Shown piece after piece: positions 30,890-40,950 of a stretch of DNA of 64,000 bases. The stretch is from an uncultured Oligoflexia bacterium (GTDB lineage Bacteria > Bdellovibrionota > Bacteriovoracia > Bacteriovoracales > Bacteriovoracaceae). The stretch spans positions 29,585 through 93,584 of the forward strand of contig CAJXPQ010000013.1 in the NCBI GenBank assembly GCA_913058265.1, in the 5' to 3' direction. Position 1 is the first letter of the stretch. The number at the start of each line of letters is the position of its first letter. The position numbers and the translations under genes are program-made. The notes beneath the pieces were generated by a model. It was not told where the DNA came from, did no database searches, and was given only the letters and a program-made list of their open reading frames with translations.

Positions 30890-32131
30890 ATGAAATTTGA
30901 CCTCATCATTATTGGAAATGAGCTCCTAAATGGGAAAATCCAAGATTTAAACGCTCATTTCTTGGCGACTGAACTTTATAATCGAGGCGATGAACTACGT
31001 AAGGTTCATGTCATAAAGGACTCTGAAAAAGAATTCGAAATGGCGATTGCAGAGTCTAAGCTTTACTCCGATGTCATCATTACCACAGGAGGTCTAGGTC
31101 CTACTCAAGACGACTTAACAAAAACCATGTTTGCTAAAATCTTTAATAAAGAAGTCGTCTACAACACAGATGCCTATAAAGTGGCCAAAGGCCATTATGA
31201 TCGAGGAGAAAGAGAGTATAACTTAGACATCATCGATTATCACAATCTTCCACTTGAATTCAATTCTCTTGCAAATCCTATTGGTTATGCGCCTGGTATT
31301 CATTACCAGGAAGATGATGTTCACTTTTTTGCAACACCAGGAGTTCCATCGGAATTTCAAGTAATGCTATGTGAAATCATCCTACCAAAGATACCTAAAC
31401 CCAGTTTGAAGTCAAAGCATGTCATTATCAAAACATGGAAGATACCTGAATCAAAAATTTTTCATGAATTTGCGCCAGAGCTTTGGAAAGATCTTGAAAC
31501 CATAGGTGAAGTCAGCTCCCTACCACATATTTCAGGTGTTGATATCGGTGTAAAAATTAGTGGATCTACTGAAGTAGAGATTGAGCAAAAAGAAAAAAAA
31601 GTTATAGCACTAGTTTCTGCCACAGAAATTAAAGACTATATTTGGCACATAGGACCGGAGTCACTTGAAGAAGTTATAGTGACAAAAGCAAAACAAAAAA
31701 AACTAACCATTGGTTTTGCTGAAAGTTGTACTGGAGGACTATGCGCAAGTCGCATAACCGATATCAGCGGCTCATCTGCTGTTTTCTGGGGAAGTATTGT
31801 AAGCTATGCTAATGAAGTTAAAACAAAATCGCTAGAGGTTAAAACTGAGACCTTAAAAGATCACGGTGCTGTATCGAAAAAAACAGCCCGTGAAATGGCC
31901 CTAGGAGCGAGAGAGCAATTACAAGTTGATATTGCCATTTCCACTACTGGAATAGCTGGACCAGGCGGCGGATCAATTGAGAAGCCAGTTGGAACCGTTG
32001 GAATAGGAGTATCCACTGTCAGTGGTACAAAGAGTAAAATCTATAATTTCAAAGGAAGTAGAAAGGCCTTAAAACAAAGATTTTCTCAAGCTGCACTGAT
32101 GATTTTATTGGAAGAAATCACACATCTTTAA
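30890..32131 (+). CDS. cinA: CinA family protein (molybdopterin-binding domain plus nicotinamide-nucleotide amidase domain)
   Basis: ITTGGLGPTQDDLTK, FATPGVPSEF, IGFAESCTGGLCASRITDISGSSAVFWGSIVSYAN, TTGIAGPGGGSIEKPVGTV. Confidence 0.93.
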   Translation: MKFDLIIIGNELLNGKIQDLNAHFLATELYNRGDELRKVHVIKDSEKEFEMAIAESKLYSDVIITTGGLGPTQDDLTKTMFAKIFNKEVVYNTDAYKVAKGHYDRGEREYNLDIIDYHNLPLEFNSLANPIGYAPGIHYQEDDVHFFATPGVPSEFQVMLCEIILPKIPKPSLKSKHVIIKTWKIPESKIFHEFAPELWKDLETIGEVSSLPHISGVDIGVKISGSTEVEIEQKEKKVIALVSATEIKDYIWHIGPESLEEVIVTKAKQKKLTIGFAESCTGGLCASRITDISGSSAVFWGSIVSYANEVKTKSLEVKTETLKDHGAVSKKTAREMALGAREQLQVDIAISTTGIAGPGGGSIEKPVGTVGIGVSTVSGTKSKIYNFKGSRKALKQRFSQAALMILLEEITHL

Positions 32132-33857
32132 GAGCAATACCCGGAACCCCAATTGACTGTGTTATAAGACAAAAGATAAGTCTTTCCTTGTCAGAGATTT
32201 TACTATCAGAGACAATAATTTTTTTCGCTAACTTACAAAGTAGCTCTTTATCTTTAGGCTTAGCAAAACGAAGCCATTTCAATGAGTCCATGATATTGAG
32301 GTAGCCTAACTCACTCTTAAGTATGAAGTTGATTGATTTTTCTTCAGAGACTAGGTCTATAAAGTTAATATCTGTACTATCACCTTCATAATATAGATAG
32401 CTCAAAAGCATTGAAGCATACTTATAAAATTCATTAGAGGATAAATCTTTTATTGGAAGTTTTTCTTCAACAAGTACTGGTCTCAAGTAGGAAAGAATAA
32501 GAAACTCCATAAATTTGATTTTACTATCCTTAATAACTTCTTCTTTTAAAGACTTATATATTCCCTCTTTCTCAGTAGAGTCTAATCTTCTAATAAAAGG
32601 GACTACTGCTTCGAGATAATGAATTTTGGTATCAGTATTTAAATTTTTAATTTCATCTAACTCATTTTGCATAAAAGGAATAATCATATCAGCAATAGAT
32701 TTATCAGATGAGACTTGTCCTTGAGGCAACTTATTTAAAAAGAAGAACATTGGACCTAAATAGGCCATAGCTGACTTGAAGCTTTCAGGCCCTATAATTT
32801 CTTCTTTCTTTGTATTCTTTTTTCTTAAAGAGTCTTGTCTCTCTCTTTGAATTGAATACATATTTTCTCGAACCTTAAGTAGATTCTCTTCTGTAAGTTC
32901 TTTTACATTATAATTTTCTTTGATTGCCAGAATTCTTTTTTCAGTTGCTGGGTGAGTATCAAAAGAAAAAAAACTCTTTGTTGGATCTGAAATACACATA
33001 TGACTAGCATCATCCACATGAGAACTTTTCAACTGACTACCCTGCACATTTGCCATGATTTTGACGAGTACTCCAACCATACTATCAGGGTTCCTTGTGA
33101 ATTGAACACTTGAAGCATCAGCGAGATACTCTCTTTCTTTAGAAATTTTAGACTTAAGCCATCCGGCCACAAGATATCCAATTCCTCCTAGCGCAAAAAA
33201 GATAGCTCCGATACCTGCTGCCCCATTTCCTTTTTTTCTAGATCTACGACCTGATGATCTCAGCAATAAACGGCCCAACTTAAATATAATAAGTAAGCCT
33301 GCTAAAGTACCCGTTAGTTTTAGATTTAAATTCATATCACCGTTTAAAATATGACTAAACTCATGGGCCACAACTGCTTGTAGTTCATCACGAGTAAGAT
33401 TCTCTAGCGCACCTCTAGTCACACAAATACCTGCATTATGAATATCAAAGCCACAAGCAAAGGCATTTATTGAACTCTCAGGAAGGTAATACACAGAAGG
33501 AATGGGAACTCCTGAGGCAATACTCATCTCTTCTACAATATTTAAATATTGCTCAAATATGAAATCTTCCTGAACACCAGAAATCTCAATACCTCCAAGA
33601 TTAGTAAAAATAGAGCTCGGATTTCGACGCAAATACTCTGTCTTAATCAAAGAGACTATGGAGATAAAGCCGAAGCTTCCTAAGGACGAGTAAACGAAAA
33701 TAGTTAACACCATATTTTCCGTGTCAAAAGAGTCTTTTAGATAGATTGAAAGCGAGATTCCAATCAGAACAGAGACAGTGAGGACAGAAGAAAAGAATAA
33801 AACAAGTAAGTTTCTTGTCTTCTGCTTTGCCTCATATTGTGCTTCGAAGAAGTTCAT
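32118..33857 (-). CDS. M48 family (HtpX-like) metallopeptidase
   Basis: INAFACGFDIHNAGICVTRGALENLTRDELQAVVAHEFSHILNGDM; N-terminal TM pair; EREYLADASSVQFT. Confidence 0.9.
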   Translation of the reverse strand: MNFFEAQYEAKQKTRNLLVLFFSSVLTVSVLIGISLSIYLKDSFDTENMVLTIFVYSSLGSFGFISIVSLIKTEYLRRNPSSIFTNLGGIEISGVQEDFIFEQYLNIVEEMSIASGVPIPSVYYLPESSINAFACGFDIHNAGICVTRGALENLTRDELQAVVAHEFSHILNGDMNLNLKLTGTLAGLLIIFKLGRLLLRSSGRRSRKKGNGAAGIGAIFFALGGIGYLVAGWLKSKISKEREYLADASSVQFTRNPDSMVGVLVKIMANVQGSQLKSSHVDDASHMCISDPTKSFFSFDTHPATEKRILAIKENYNVKELTEENLLKVRENMYSIQRERQDSLRKKNTKKEEIIGPESFKSAMAYLGPMFFFLNKLPQGQVSSDKSIADMIIPFMQNELDEIKNLNTDTKIHYLEAVVPFIRRLDSTEKEGIYKSLKEEVIKDSKIKFMEFLILSYLRPVLVEEKLPIKDLSSNEFYKYASMLLSYLYYEGDSTDINFIDLVSEEKSINFILKSELGYLNIMDSLKWLRFAKPKDKELLCKLAKKIIVSDSKISDKERLIFCLITQSIGVPGIALKDV

Positions 33858-34464: not shown

Positions 34465-35285
34465 CTATACATCCTTCTTTGTATCAAATTCTTCTTCGTC
34501 TTCTAATTCTCTATAATTTTCATCCGCTTTCGCATTTACATATTTATGTGCAATTTGCTTATTCGCTCCTCGTAACCTTTGACTCATTGTTTGCATCAGC
34601 GATCTAAACCAGCGAGGTTGGTTCTCCATAACATCAATAAATTTTTTATGGGGAATGACAAGTACTTCGCAATCGACGATCGCCTTGACGCTCGCAGACC
34701 TTGAAGATTATCCAGAAAACTCATCTCACCAACGAGTTCACCAGGGTAAATTTCCCCCAGAATGACATTTTTATCATCATGATTCATTTTAGTAATGAGA
34801 AACTTTCCCGCGAGTATCCAAAACATTTCATGGCTGGTACCACCTTCAGTTATAAGGTACTCCCCCTTAACAATTTTTCTTGTATTACTAGTGATAATAT
34901 CTGAATGACCTGAAAAAGTAAGGAGCTTCTTTTTTAACTCTAGCTTCGTAAATGGAGCTGCCATATACTTTATGTTATCAAGATTTGAAAAATTTAAAGT
35001 AAATTCATCTGCATGTTCACCAATGATAAGAATTGGAATTATATCCGTTATATTCTTAAGAGTTTCTTTACGTCGTATAATCTCTACAAACTCTAAAGCA
35101 TTAAATCCTTTCATATCCATATCAATTACAACAATATCAAATTTTTCATTTGAGTATTTAAGACGAGCTTCATTTGAGTTTCCAGCGACAACAACTCTAT
35201 ATTTTTGTTGCTCAAAAACATCAACATTAATTTGCTGAATTTCTTCATTAGAAATAATAACTAATACCGTACTTTCATTTTTCAT
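34465..35285 (-). pseudogene. Response-regulator receiver plus cyclic-nucleotide-binding domain protein, interrupted by an apparent 1-nt frameshift near 34699-34703
   Basis: Frame 1: MKNESTVLVIIS...GELVGEMSFLDNLQ; frame 2 continues SVKAIVDCEVLVIPHKKFIDVMENQPRWFRSLMQTMSQRLRGANKQIAHKYVNAKADENYRELEDEEEFDTKKDV*; stop TAG at 34465-34467, 1 nt before lemA ATG. Confidence 0.8.
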
Positions 35286-35898: not shown

Positions 35899-38800
35899 GT
35901 GATGAAGAAAATATTTAGTTTTAAATTCATTTTTACTTTTGCGCTTATGTTTATCATAAGTTCATGTCTCCCTGAGCAACAACAAGTTCCGGTTGATAGT
36001 GGTACTAGTGACCAATCAAGTACTGTTGATGACGAAGTAGTTGTTGAGGAAGAAAACCCTACCCTGCCTCAAGTCGTAAATTTTCTACAACAAGGATCAA
36101 CTGATACAACAACAACACTAAGTTTATTCTCTGATTTTAAAGATACATTTTTACTTCGTGGAAATGACATCATCGCGTTCTTAAAAGATCAATCACAGTC
36201 TTCACAAAGTAATTTTTGTATGACGACAAACTTTACAGGGGCAAGTGGAGCAACGGCAAAAAACATTTTAGTGCTCTCAGCAAGAATTCGTTCATTTTAT
36301 TCAACAACTTTAAAAACACGAGAGTATTTTTTACAATTTGATCCTAATAATAAAGATCTGAATCAGACTGACTGTTTAAGCGTTAGCTTAGTTAATAAGC
36401 TAAACTCAGTTTATGGATCAACAAACATTACTTACTCAATGGATGAGATTTGTCCTGACTGTAATACAAATATTTCATCAACAAGCTTAAGACTATTTAA
36501 TCTTAGTGGGGTTGAATTTTCATCATCGCTAATTGCACATTTAAATCTCTCAGTAATTCCTGGTTTAGGATCTACAAGTACGGGTACAGTAGAGACATGC
36601 TCCATAAATGCAAACTGTATTAGCTCTGGCTTTAATTGTTGTCTATCAGGACAATGTGTAAATCACGGAGAAGTTAGACCAGAGACTCTTCAGTCAAGTG
36701 ATGAGTACTTAGCTGCACTTCAGCTAGTCCTAGCTCGTCCAGAGCTTATAAAAAATTATGAACACCTCTTCTACGTCTGCCCCATGATGGTACCAACGAC
36801 TGAAGAGGATCCAGAGGATATAGATCCAGTTCAAAATGCAAATGATCTTTTTACCGAGCTAACAAGGTTATATGAATGTACTACTCCTCAAGTAGACGAG
36901 TTCTCAATATGTACAATGGATTATAATGATGCCTCCACACTTATGAATGGAAGCTCACATGACTTCCTTGCTGGTAATGATGATAAAACTTTTGATAATA
37001 TAAATTCATTTATGAATGGTACTCAAAATATCGTTCAGATTGATTATGCAGGAAGAATCCTTTATAAGGATGCTCTCACTTCAGAGCAAACAAATATTGC
37101 TCTTCCGAGTTATATAACTCTTGGAGTAACAAATGACTCTTTAACTCAGGCCCAAGTTGCAAGTATCAATACAACACTTCCTGAGGATGCAACCAATGAT
37201 ACCGTCTCAATATCTTACAAAGTTGACGGGACATGTGAAAAACTTGGAACCTCTCTTGCTAGATGTATGAAGTATTACAAGCAAGCTCAGATATCTACCC
37301 CTTCAAGGTCGAGTGATCATGCAAGCGGAAATAATACTTTCAACTTACCTACATACTTTGACTCAGATTTTAATGTCATTGTTGAAGTTGGTGGTAGTAT
37401 TGTACCTAAAGGTACAACTACCTGGAGTAGTGTTGGAAACTCAATCGTTTTTAATAGCTCCACTTTTCCAGTTGTCGATAATCAAGAAATCTCTATCAGT
37501 TATTTTGTAACTGATGATGTCGATATGTTAACAGTATCAAAAGAGTTAGCTCAGTCAGGGATCGATGACCACTGCGCTTGTGATCCTTTAAAAGATCCTT
37601 GTACCTTGAAACCTATTCAATCAGAAGTTGGTGGAGAGCTTAAGACAACAAGCTATGTTTGTATTTACCCTCAACCTGATGTCCCAAATGGACCTCTCCA
37701 AGAGACGGTTTATGTTAGTGCAAAGTCAGTTCCCCACAAGTTCTACGATGAGTTTGGAGTAAACTATGACCTTGGTGATGTCGCTTCAGAAAATGTCCAA
37801 GAAGGTTTAGAGTTTGAATATACTGATGGAAATAACTTAAAGCCAAATAATGTTGGTACCTACATAGGCTTTAATGAAATTTACGGAACTATGAATCTGA
37901 ATGAAGCCTCACCTCTTCCTCCTAAAGTTGTCAACGTTGATAAGGGAACAACATACGATATTTTTGTCGATGAAGGCGCATTTTCAACTTGTCTAAATTG
38001 TGGCTCAGACTACTTTTCAAATATGCAAAAAGTCTTTCCAAATAATTTTAATTATAAAGGAGCCGGCTACTATGCTAATCTTGTCGAATCAAGACGCAGA
38101 AAAAATCAAAGTAAGTATCCAGGTGATGACTTTAAATTTGGTCGTGCATGTTTTGTCCCTGCTTCAATGATGCCTTGGACACATTCGGCCAACACAGACG
38201 TAAAAACTCAAAGAAATAATCGACTTGCTGCCCAACACTTTCTTTATTCCAATGGAATGAACAAAGACTGGTATGGCTTTGATTATGGATCAATGATTGG
38301 GTCATTCGATGGTGTTAAGTGGTTCTCCATTGGCAATCAACGAAGAATTAAGGCCGAGTCAAATAAACTCTATCTTGCTGTGAACGCCTACTTTGGTGAC
38401 CTTACAATTAATAATACATTCAAACTTATGATAAGTGAGATTAGTAGCGTGCTCAATTCGGGATCATTTATTAACCACGATTCTGATAGTGATGGCGCCG
38501 AATGCCAAAGGGCCCACTTCTGTGAAAGTGACAACGATTGTCTTACAAACTTAGGTTATGAGTATACATGTCAAAATGTATCTGAATTTCAAACACCTTG
38601 GCCACAATTTGACAGTAATGGAAATGAGATCAGTGGCTCTATTTCAAGATCGCTTCTGTCATTAGTTGGTGGATCTAACGGACAAGCAAAGCGTTGTGTG
38701 TATAGAGGACCTGGAGCTATTTGTGAACAAAGACAGTTTTCTGTAAATAGTTCAAGTTCATATGCGAGTACTTCGAACTCAGCTCTTCACGCTTGTTCAC

Positions 38801-40950
38801 CAAATTCATATTGTGAATCTCTAAATTCATCAAAATTTAATAATAATATATCTCGATATGCAGATAGCCCTACCAATCAAAATATTCAAACTTTTATTAC
38901 GGAAGATACTGATACATTCGGTCTCGCTGCAAGAATATTAGGACGTCCCTATAAATACTATGGAGATGAAGCGGTAAACTCGACTGCAAGAACACAGCTC
39001 AATAATACAAAAATTAACTCTGTCTGTATTCCAGGAAAAGATACTGTTAATGTAGATAATACTGAGGATGCTAATTTTATTGCAATTGAAAATCGTGAAG
39101 CTGATAAGATTAGTAATGTTGGCCGTACAATGAGCTCATTAGTTTCTCAAGATGAAAATTACCTGTCCTTCTGCCCTGGAACTGACGATGAAGGTAATTA
39201 TACACATCTAAATGATGTGCAACTAAATGATAGTAGTCATAAACCCTTTGCCATTAAAGAGAATCTATCCTCAAATAGTTTAATTTTAGACTCCCTTGAA
39301 GATAAAAAATTATTTAATGATACAACCAGCCTCGTAACATCTATTGGCTATCATAAGAATACTTGTTTAAGAGCTCCTGGGGCAAAATGTTTTTCTGACT
39401 TTGAATGTGCTCCGAATGAATTTATTTCACAAAAATTCAAATCAGTTTCAAATTTTAATGGTGAAATTAGCGAAGCAGAAGAGAAGTTTTGGGAAGAAGA
39501 ACTCATTTGTGGGAACTCCCAAAATAGATATCAAGAAGGCGGGTTCTTCCCTAATCCGGTATATGAAACTTATGAAAATCACTGTTGTCGAGAAACAGGA
39601 AAAGAATTTACATACTTTACACAGAAGCATGAAGGTAGTGACTTTAAAGTTGTGAATGATTCTGATGAGCCGCTTATTCCAGGAGTTAATCAAGATTATA
39701 ATTCTCCTGAGAGATACTCTAGAACCCATACTGTTTATGATAAGTTAATATCTGAGCCTACTAAGTACCCATCGATGGTCAGTGCGAGTGAACAGCCAGT
39801 AGATCCTCTGGCGATGACTCTAGAAAAGATCAAGCAATACAATACTCTCCACCTTCATAATGAAAGAATGTGTTGTACCGGACACTGGGTAAGGAAGCTT
39901 GAAAGCTCAGATGCTAATCGCTTTGGCCCTACAAGCCAACAGAATATTGAGCTGACAACATTTAAGCCTTTAAATTGGTATCCTAACAACATACCTGCTG
40001 TGAATATATTTCCTAACGGGGCCTACGACCCCACCATTATGCCTTATGCTTGTGATCAGTTCGATGTTCAAACAACAGACTGTGAAATTAAAAATCTCAT
40101 AGAAGGAAATAGCGAAGAGACTAAATACCTTGAGTGGTTCTCAAAATTTGAGCTCATAGGTATTCCTCAAGTCTTAATTGAAACAAATAATGAAATTCCT
40201 AAGCCTATGAGTACAGAGGCAATGGATACAAATGGTGACGGTACTGATGATACCGCATCTCAACAGGATATCAGTGGACTTAACCTACCTCTTGATAACA
40301 CAATAAAAGATGCAAATTCAGATGGTAAAGTTGACGCCACATTCAATGGGAAAGAGTACTACTCTGCTTCATCATATGAAAACTTTGAAATGGGCAGTGG
40401 TAAACTTAAAAAGATCTTCTCTGAAGATGAATTCAATTGCTGTATCCCTACAGGTATAGAGGTTGATGCAAACTTGCCTCCCTCTAGCTGCTGTACAGGA
40501 CAAATTGATGGTAGCTCTGGTGTTAACAGATGTTGTCTGCCAGATTTCACAGATCTTTCAGTTTATACAAATAGATATGTTTCAAGTGAGGGTGCATTCT
40601 TTAACGGGCAAAAGATAAACGATTCCGATATTGACCCTACGACAGGTTATATTAAAAAAGAAATTGTTCTTCAGATGGCATCAACAATGTGTTGTGGCGG
40701 AAAAGCAGTTTTAGGACGAGTCATTAAGAATAATTTTATTCCAACTCTGGCCTCACAGCCAGTAAATGTTGATGGTGCCCAACCTCAAGTTAGGCGTTGG
40801 CAATTTCTCAATGAAATGGATAATGCAGATAATGATTATAATATCGGTGTTAAATGGAATAATCATGTTTATTGTATTGGTGATCAAGACTTAACTGAAG
40901 AGTCTGACAGTGGCTCAGGCGGTGGTGGCGGCGGCGCTGTTCAGGAATAA
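35899..40950 (+). CDS. Giant Cys-rich lipoprotein (1683 aa)
   Basis: Lipobox FIISSC; multiple Cys clusters (NCCLSGQC, CESDNDC, CFSDFEC, HCCRE, MCCTGHW, NCCIPTG, SCCTGQ, RCCLPD, MCCGGK); DTNGDGTDD and DANSDGKVD Ca-binding-like loops; ends GSGGGGGGAVQE. Confidence 0.8.
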   Translation: MMKKIFSFKFIFTFALMFIISSCLPEQQQVPVDSGTSDQSSTVDDEVVVEEENPTLPQVVNFLQQGSTDTTTTLSLFSDFKDTFLLRGNDIIAFLKDQSQSSQSNFCMTTNFTGASGATAKNILVLSARIRSFYSTTLKTREYFLQFDPNNKDLNQTDCLSVSLVNKLNSVYGSTNITYSMDEICPDCNTNISSTSLRLFNLSGVEFSSSLIAHLNLSVIPGLGSTSTGTVETCSINANCISSGFNCCLSGQCVNHGEVRPETLQSSDEYLAALQLVLARPELIKNYEHLFYVCPMMVPTTEEDPEDIDPVQNANDLFTELTRLYECTTPQVDEFSICTMDYNDASTLMNGSSHDFLAGNDDKTFDNINSFMNGTQNIVQIDYAGRILYKDALTSEQTNIALPSYITLGVTNDSLTQAQVASINTTLPEDATNDTVSISYKVDGTCEKLGTSLARCMKYYKQAQISTPSRSSDHASGNNTFNLPTYFDSDFNVIVEVGGSIVPKGTTTWSSVGNSIVFNSSTFPVVDNQEISISYFVTDDVDMLTVSKELAQSGIDDHCACDPLKDPCTLKPIQSEVGGELKTTSYVCIYPQPDVPNGPLQETVYVSAKSVPHKFYDEFGVNYDLGDVASENVQEGLEFEYTDGNNLKPNNVGTYIGFNEIYGTMNLNEASPLPPKVVNVDKGTTYDIFVDEGAFSTCLNCGSDYFSNMQKVFPNNFNYKGAGYYANLVESRRRKNQSKYPGDDFKFGRACFVPASMMPWTHSANTDVKTQRNNRLAAQHFLYSNGMNKDWYGFDYGSMIGSFDGVKWFSIGNQRRIKAESNKLYLAVNAYFGDLTINNTFKLMISEISSVLNSGSFINHDSDSDGAECQRAHFCESDNDCLTNLGYEYTCQNVSEFQTPWPQFDSNGNEISGSISRSLLSLVGGSNGQAKRCVYRGPGAICEQRQFSVNSSSSYASTSNSALHACSPNSYCESLNSSKFNNNISRYADSPTNQNIQTFITEDTDTFGLAARILGRPYKYYGDEAVNSTARTQLNNTKINSVCIPGKDTVNVDNTEDANFIAIENREADKISNVGRTMSSLVSQDENYLSFCPGTDDEGNYTHLNDVQLNDSSHKPFAIKENLSSNSLILDSLEDKKLFNDTTSLVTSIGYHKNTCLRAPGAKCFSDFECAPNEFISQKFKSVSNFNGEISEAEEKFWEEELICGNSQNRYQEGGFFPNPVYETYENHCCRETGKEFTYFTQKHEGSDFKVVNDSDEPLIPGVNQDYNSPERYSRTHTVYDKLISEPTKYPSMVSASEQPVDPLAMTLEKIKQYNTLHLHNERMCCTGHWVRKLESSDANRFGPTSQQNIELTTFKPLNWYPNNIPAVNIFPNGAYDPTIMPYACDQFDVQTTDCEIKNLIEGNSEETKYLEWFSKFELIGIPQVLIETNNEIPKPMSTEAMDTNGDGTDDTASQQDISGLNLPLDNTIKDANSDGKVDATFNGKEYYSASSYENFEMGSGKLKKIFSEDEFNCCIPTGIEVDANLPPSSCCTGQIDGSSGVNRCCLPDFTDLSVYTNRYVSSEGAFFNGQKINDSDIDPTTGYIKKEIVLQMASTMCCGGKAVLGRVIKNNFIPTLASQPVNVDGAQPQVRRWQFLNEMDNADNDYNIGVKWNNHVYCIGDQDLTEESDSGSGGGGGGAVQE

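Follow-up and report, generated by a model that had tools for sequence, protein, structure and literature searches.

A one-base frame break in a Halobacteriovoraceae-type REC-CNB gene upstream of lemA and an M48 protease gene

In the stretch of 64,000 nucleotides of uncultured Oligoflexia DNA that was analysed here (the window), a minus-strand open reading frame begins as a regulator with a receiver domain (REC) followed by a cyclic nucleotide-binding (CNB) domain, and ends in residues foreign to that family. The question raised by this locus is whether the gene is truly broken and, if it is, whether this reflects a mutation, an error in the consensus sequence or a programmed device. The site lies about 64 kb from the start of contig 13 of genome G000, which is 93.6 kb long, and so away from the contig ends; the genome is 99.6% complete with a size of 3.23 Mb in 25 contigs. 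It belongs to a marine Bdellovibrio-type bacterium (Bdellovibrionota), placed as Halobacteriovoraceae-like by the named relatives that the sequence of the regulator itself retrieved. The features of the locus are listed in Table 1.

Table 1. Positions in the window of the interrupted REC-CNB gene and of the genes that follow it.
Feature	Position	Strand	Remarks
First-frame ORF, 229 aa: degenerate receiver, start of CNB, 34-aa non-family tail	34596..35285	-	
Junction between the conserved Leu and conserved Arg codons, one base short of the family frame	34701..34705	-	
Displaced rest of the gene, 78 codons and TAG in the -1 frame; CNB phosphate-binding Arg-Ser, last beta strands, C-terminal helices	34465..34701	-	
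lemA, 199 aa	33864..34463	-	PF04011, E 1e-52; ATG one base past the displaced stop
M48 (HtpX-like) membrane metalloprotease gene	32118..33857	-	6 nt after lemA
cinA-type gene, convergent	30890..32131	+	in relatives, lies downstream of REC-CNB as a conserved neighbour

The C-terminus of the first-frame ORF reads ...GEMSFLDNLQGLRASRRSSIAKYLSFPIKNLLMLWRTNLAGLDR. The alternate minus-strand frame reads RSASVKAIVDCEVLVIPHKKF...EEFDTKKDV and is open from the Arg codon at 34701 until its stop, TAG at 34467-34465. The first frame tracks the family to residue 194, with 46-59% identity to orthologues of the same genus over residues 1-194, and then departs from it, and the second-frame tail begins exactly at the next family residue. 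This second-frame tail matched four orthologues, the four closest of the whole-genome set, with E values of 4e-30 to 1e-24 and 71-77% identity, far more than chance would give. By contrast, a homology search with the 34-aa first-frame tail gave no match better than E 0.7, and the idea that this tail is native was rejected because it has no homologue. In the first-frame ORF both PF00072 and PF00027 scored above their cut-offs, the receiver preceding the CNB domain. However, the PF00027 (cNMP_binding) model is split, frame 1 matching model positions 2-59 and frame 2 matching 62-88, whereas it is complete (2-88) in the orthologues; neither frame of the window gene holds a complete CNB domain. A single uninterrupted frame runs across the site in all eight near relatives (L033-L040). 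The phosphate-binding cassette, GE...RSASV, is whole in the orthologues and has its Arg-Ser part out of frame in the window gene.

The original prediction was of a frameshifted REC-cNMP gene, correct at first and then ending in a non-family tail, with a repaired product of 273 aa and a repaired stop 1 nt before lemA. These points were borne out. The tail homology, the split Pfam model and the one-frame orthologues agree with each other, the lemA ATG is at 34463-34461, and 195 residues plus 78 give 273. The comparison with orthologues that had been suggested was run, and it showed that the relatives keep the gene whole and do not share the first-frame tail. The site proposed for the missing base (34699-34703) was also well placed, although we correct it to the CAA/GGT junction at 34703-34698, with the family-based boundary given in Table 1. 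Loss of one base stands as well. That the base was an A, restoring NLQRSASV, does not, since an A gives Gln before the Arg, a position that holds Pro in seven of the eight relatives, Thr in the other and Gln in none. As read from these frames the break is certain, and A is only one candidate for the base that was lost.

The closest known proteins are REC-CNB proteins of Halobacteriovoraceae, such as those encoded in the MAGs SI075_bin7 (L033), SAT2788 (L034), SAT79 (L035) and SAT1401 (L039). These have the same domains as the window gene and are 45-59% identical to it over the first 195 residues. Their neighbours are also like those in the window, with cinA downstream and, in several, a small secreted protein and a large lipoprotein upstream; the window has the convergent cinA and both upstream genes. 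The difference is that the gene is in one unbroken frame in all of them and is broken by one base in the window. The large upstream gene of the window, at 35899-40950, encodes a putative lipoprotein of 1683 aa that is 56-57% identical to its counterparts in two relatives, where its position is conserved, and it matched no NCBIfam family.

It is very probable that this is an ordinary Halobacteriovoraceae REC-CNB gene in which, in this assembly, one base close to the phosphate-binding cassette is missing through an unprogrammed event, either a recent mutation or a consensus error. The original prediction had offered a sequencing or assembly indel and a very recent mutation as alternatives; the isolated break and the undecayed tail agree with both and do not separate them. 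Over a shorter segment, the window tail shares 71-84% identity with its five nearest intact orthologues, compared with 73-82% among those five, and the differences between window and relatives lie chiefly in the third position of second-frame codons (for example, 14/3/33 and 14/7/32 of 57 each). In the whole-protein tree the window branch is the shortest. Because the tail is undecayed relative to intact relatives, the event is either recent or absent from the organism. With the nearest relative at 59% identity across the first 195 residues, an event of modest age would not show as decay. By tblastn, the window was compared with the proteins of two syntenic contigs of 135 and 140 kb, from the relatives SAT2788 (G059) and G001. 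Of 39 window genes with a match, REC-CNB was the only one split between frames, and this was seen with both relatives; the 39 were counted by hand and a few matched only in part, which makes this an incomplete count of errors. Decay of a duplicate was considered and rejected, as the genome holds no strongly similar second copy.

We slightly favour a real recent mutation over a consensus error, with low confidence in this split. A loss-of-function mutation in the sequenced strain, present as a fresh pseudogene or a polymorphism, is somewhat probable. The break is isolated in otherwise clean sequence, away from homopolymers and contig ends, but the gene is conserved in the genus, which means that losing it should carry a cost or have happened very recently. 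That the gene of the organism is intact and the missing base an artefact of sequencing or assembly is possible, if rather doubtful. The undecayed tail, which stops 1 nt short of lemA as expected of a working gene, and the intact gene in all near relatives fit with such an artefact. However, the repeats at the junction are 2-base runs only and the longest run nearby is 4, so a typical homopolymer error is less likely, and the absence of any other split among the compared genes indicates that the assembly is not generally prone to indels. A contig search for a second assembly of the same species found none, and literature searches on LemA/M48 operons, on REC-CNB proteins in Bdellovibrio and on indel errors in MAGs turned up nothing of direct relevance to the site.

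A recoding or phase-variation site, also raised in the original prediction, found no support, given one-frame relatives and a junction with no slippery heptamer and only 2-base runs. Programmed -1 frameshifting or transcriptional slippage yielding a short and a long product is extremely improbable. A -1 shift at the break would join both frames exactly, but a heptamer of the form X XXY YYZ is absent from the junction codons AAT CTT CAA GGT, as is any long A/T run, and all orthologues make the full protein from one frame, both of which make recoding unlikely. To the same very slight degree we credit a mixed population in which phase variation toggles the gene. A one-base difference might in principle be reversed, but neither the junction nor this place in the orthologues has a tandem repeat or homopolymer, which makes phase variation unlikely. 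Only a little less remote is the idea that the 229-aa product functions as a receiver-only variant, with the tail as its new C-terminus. Its receiver part is still complete, but the tail lacks a homologue, the receiver itself is degenerate, and the remaining half of the CNB beta roll seems unlikely to fold, judging from the model of an orthologue. Very unlikely too is a real break acting as a reversible or leaky switch that sets production of a cNMP-responsive regulator together with the strength of lemA-M48 translation.

If the unprogrammed loss of a base is real, ribosomes would stop at 34598-34596, giving a product in which the receiver is retained and the cassette Arg-Ser, the final two beta-roll strands and the two C-terminal helices are missing. 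Removal of these parts would presumably abolish cNMP binding and leave a fresh pseudogene. With translation ending 132 nt before lemA rather than 1 nt before it, translational coupling could be weaker. Such a mutation would mean that a regulator which the relatives examined retain had recently been lost here, beside a lemA-M48 pair whose place relative to it has shifted. Annotation of the REC-CNB gene should note the frameshift and warn that it may be an assembly error. The break has little significance beyond annotation and is not a new mechanism.

When intact, members of the family carry a receiver and, C-terminal to it, a CRP-type CNB domain. The cAMP-binding domain of CRP/CAP (PDB 1o3q, 1g6n) aligns with residues 139-247 of the family profile, a stretch that takes in the Glu and the Arg-Ser of the cassette, but the family has no helix-turn-helix after the CNB domain and instead has a receiver in front. 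Bd1971 of Bdellovibrio (PDB 6hq3), an EAL enzyme of a predatory relative, shares the CNB domain (E 5e-15); its output is the EAL domain, which REC-CNB proteins lack. A model of the SAT2788 orthologue (mean pLDDT 82, pTM 0.52, from a 7-sequence alignment) places strands at 199-202 and 206-211 and helices at 213-221 and 225-248 after the position of the break. It ends in the long helix 225-248 with no helix-turn-helix beyond, which makes direct DNA binding unlikely, and we infer that the intact protein acts through a protein partner. The window receiver keeps the phospho-Asp and has lost the acidic pair, the Thr/Ser and the Lys. With most of the phosphorylation site gone, control by phosphorylation is doubtful. 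The receiver region (34920-35285 in the window) is a pseudo-receiver in the nearest relatives too (L033-L039), with the acidic pair and usually the Lys lost and the Asp mostly kept; a more distant homologue in AM-382-I21 (L040) has a full phosphorylation site. The CNB half is the likely sensor. Pairwise identity among these proteins is 44-81% in the CNB part before the break compared with 23-51% in the receiver.

The original prediction also expected that an intact gene would form a tight REC-cNMP/LemA/M48 operon. The gene order holds in the window and in SAT2788; in both, REC-CNB, lemA, M48 and convergent cinA follow one another, with 1 nt between the displaced stop and lemA in the window and 35 nt before lemA in SAT2788. 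It is not genus-wide, as other relatives have the pair elsewhere or are without it at this place. No terminator-like site was found between REC-CNB and lemA in the window, so their co-transcription appears plausible. In SI075, SAT1401, SAT180, ERR2094166 and SRR3963982, REC-CNB directly faces cinA, whereas lemA-M48 sits between the two in the window; in G001, which carries the SAT1401 locus, the pair is on another contig. We therefore consider REC-CNB facing cinA to be the conserved unit and lemA-M48 a variable passenger. The order lemA then M48 occurs in the window, in SAT2788 and at six further loci of relatives, but behind REC-CNB only in the first two. In SAT79 a divergent lemA (25% identity; L035 4781-5323) lies behind REC-CNB with no M48 match, and it looks like a gene left over after loss of the protease. 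More broadly, lemA followed by M48 recurs in several Bdellovibrionota genomes at various places, independently of REC-CNB (L034, L143-L148).
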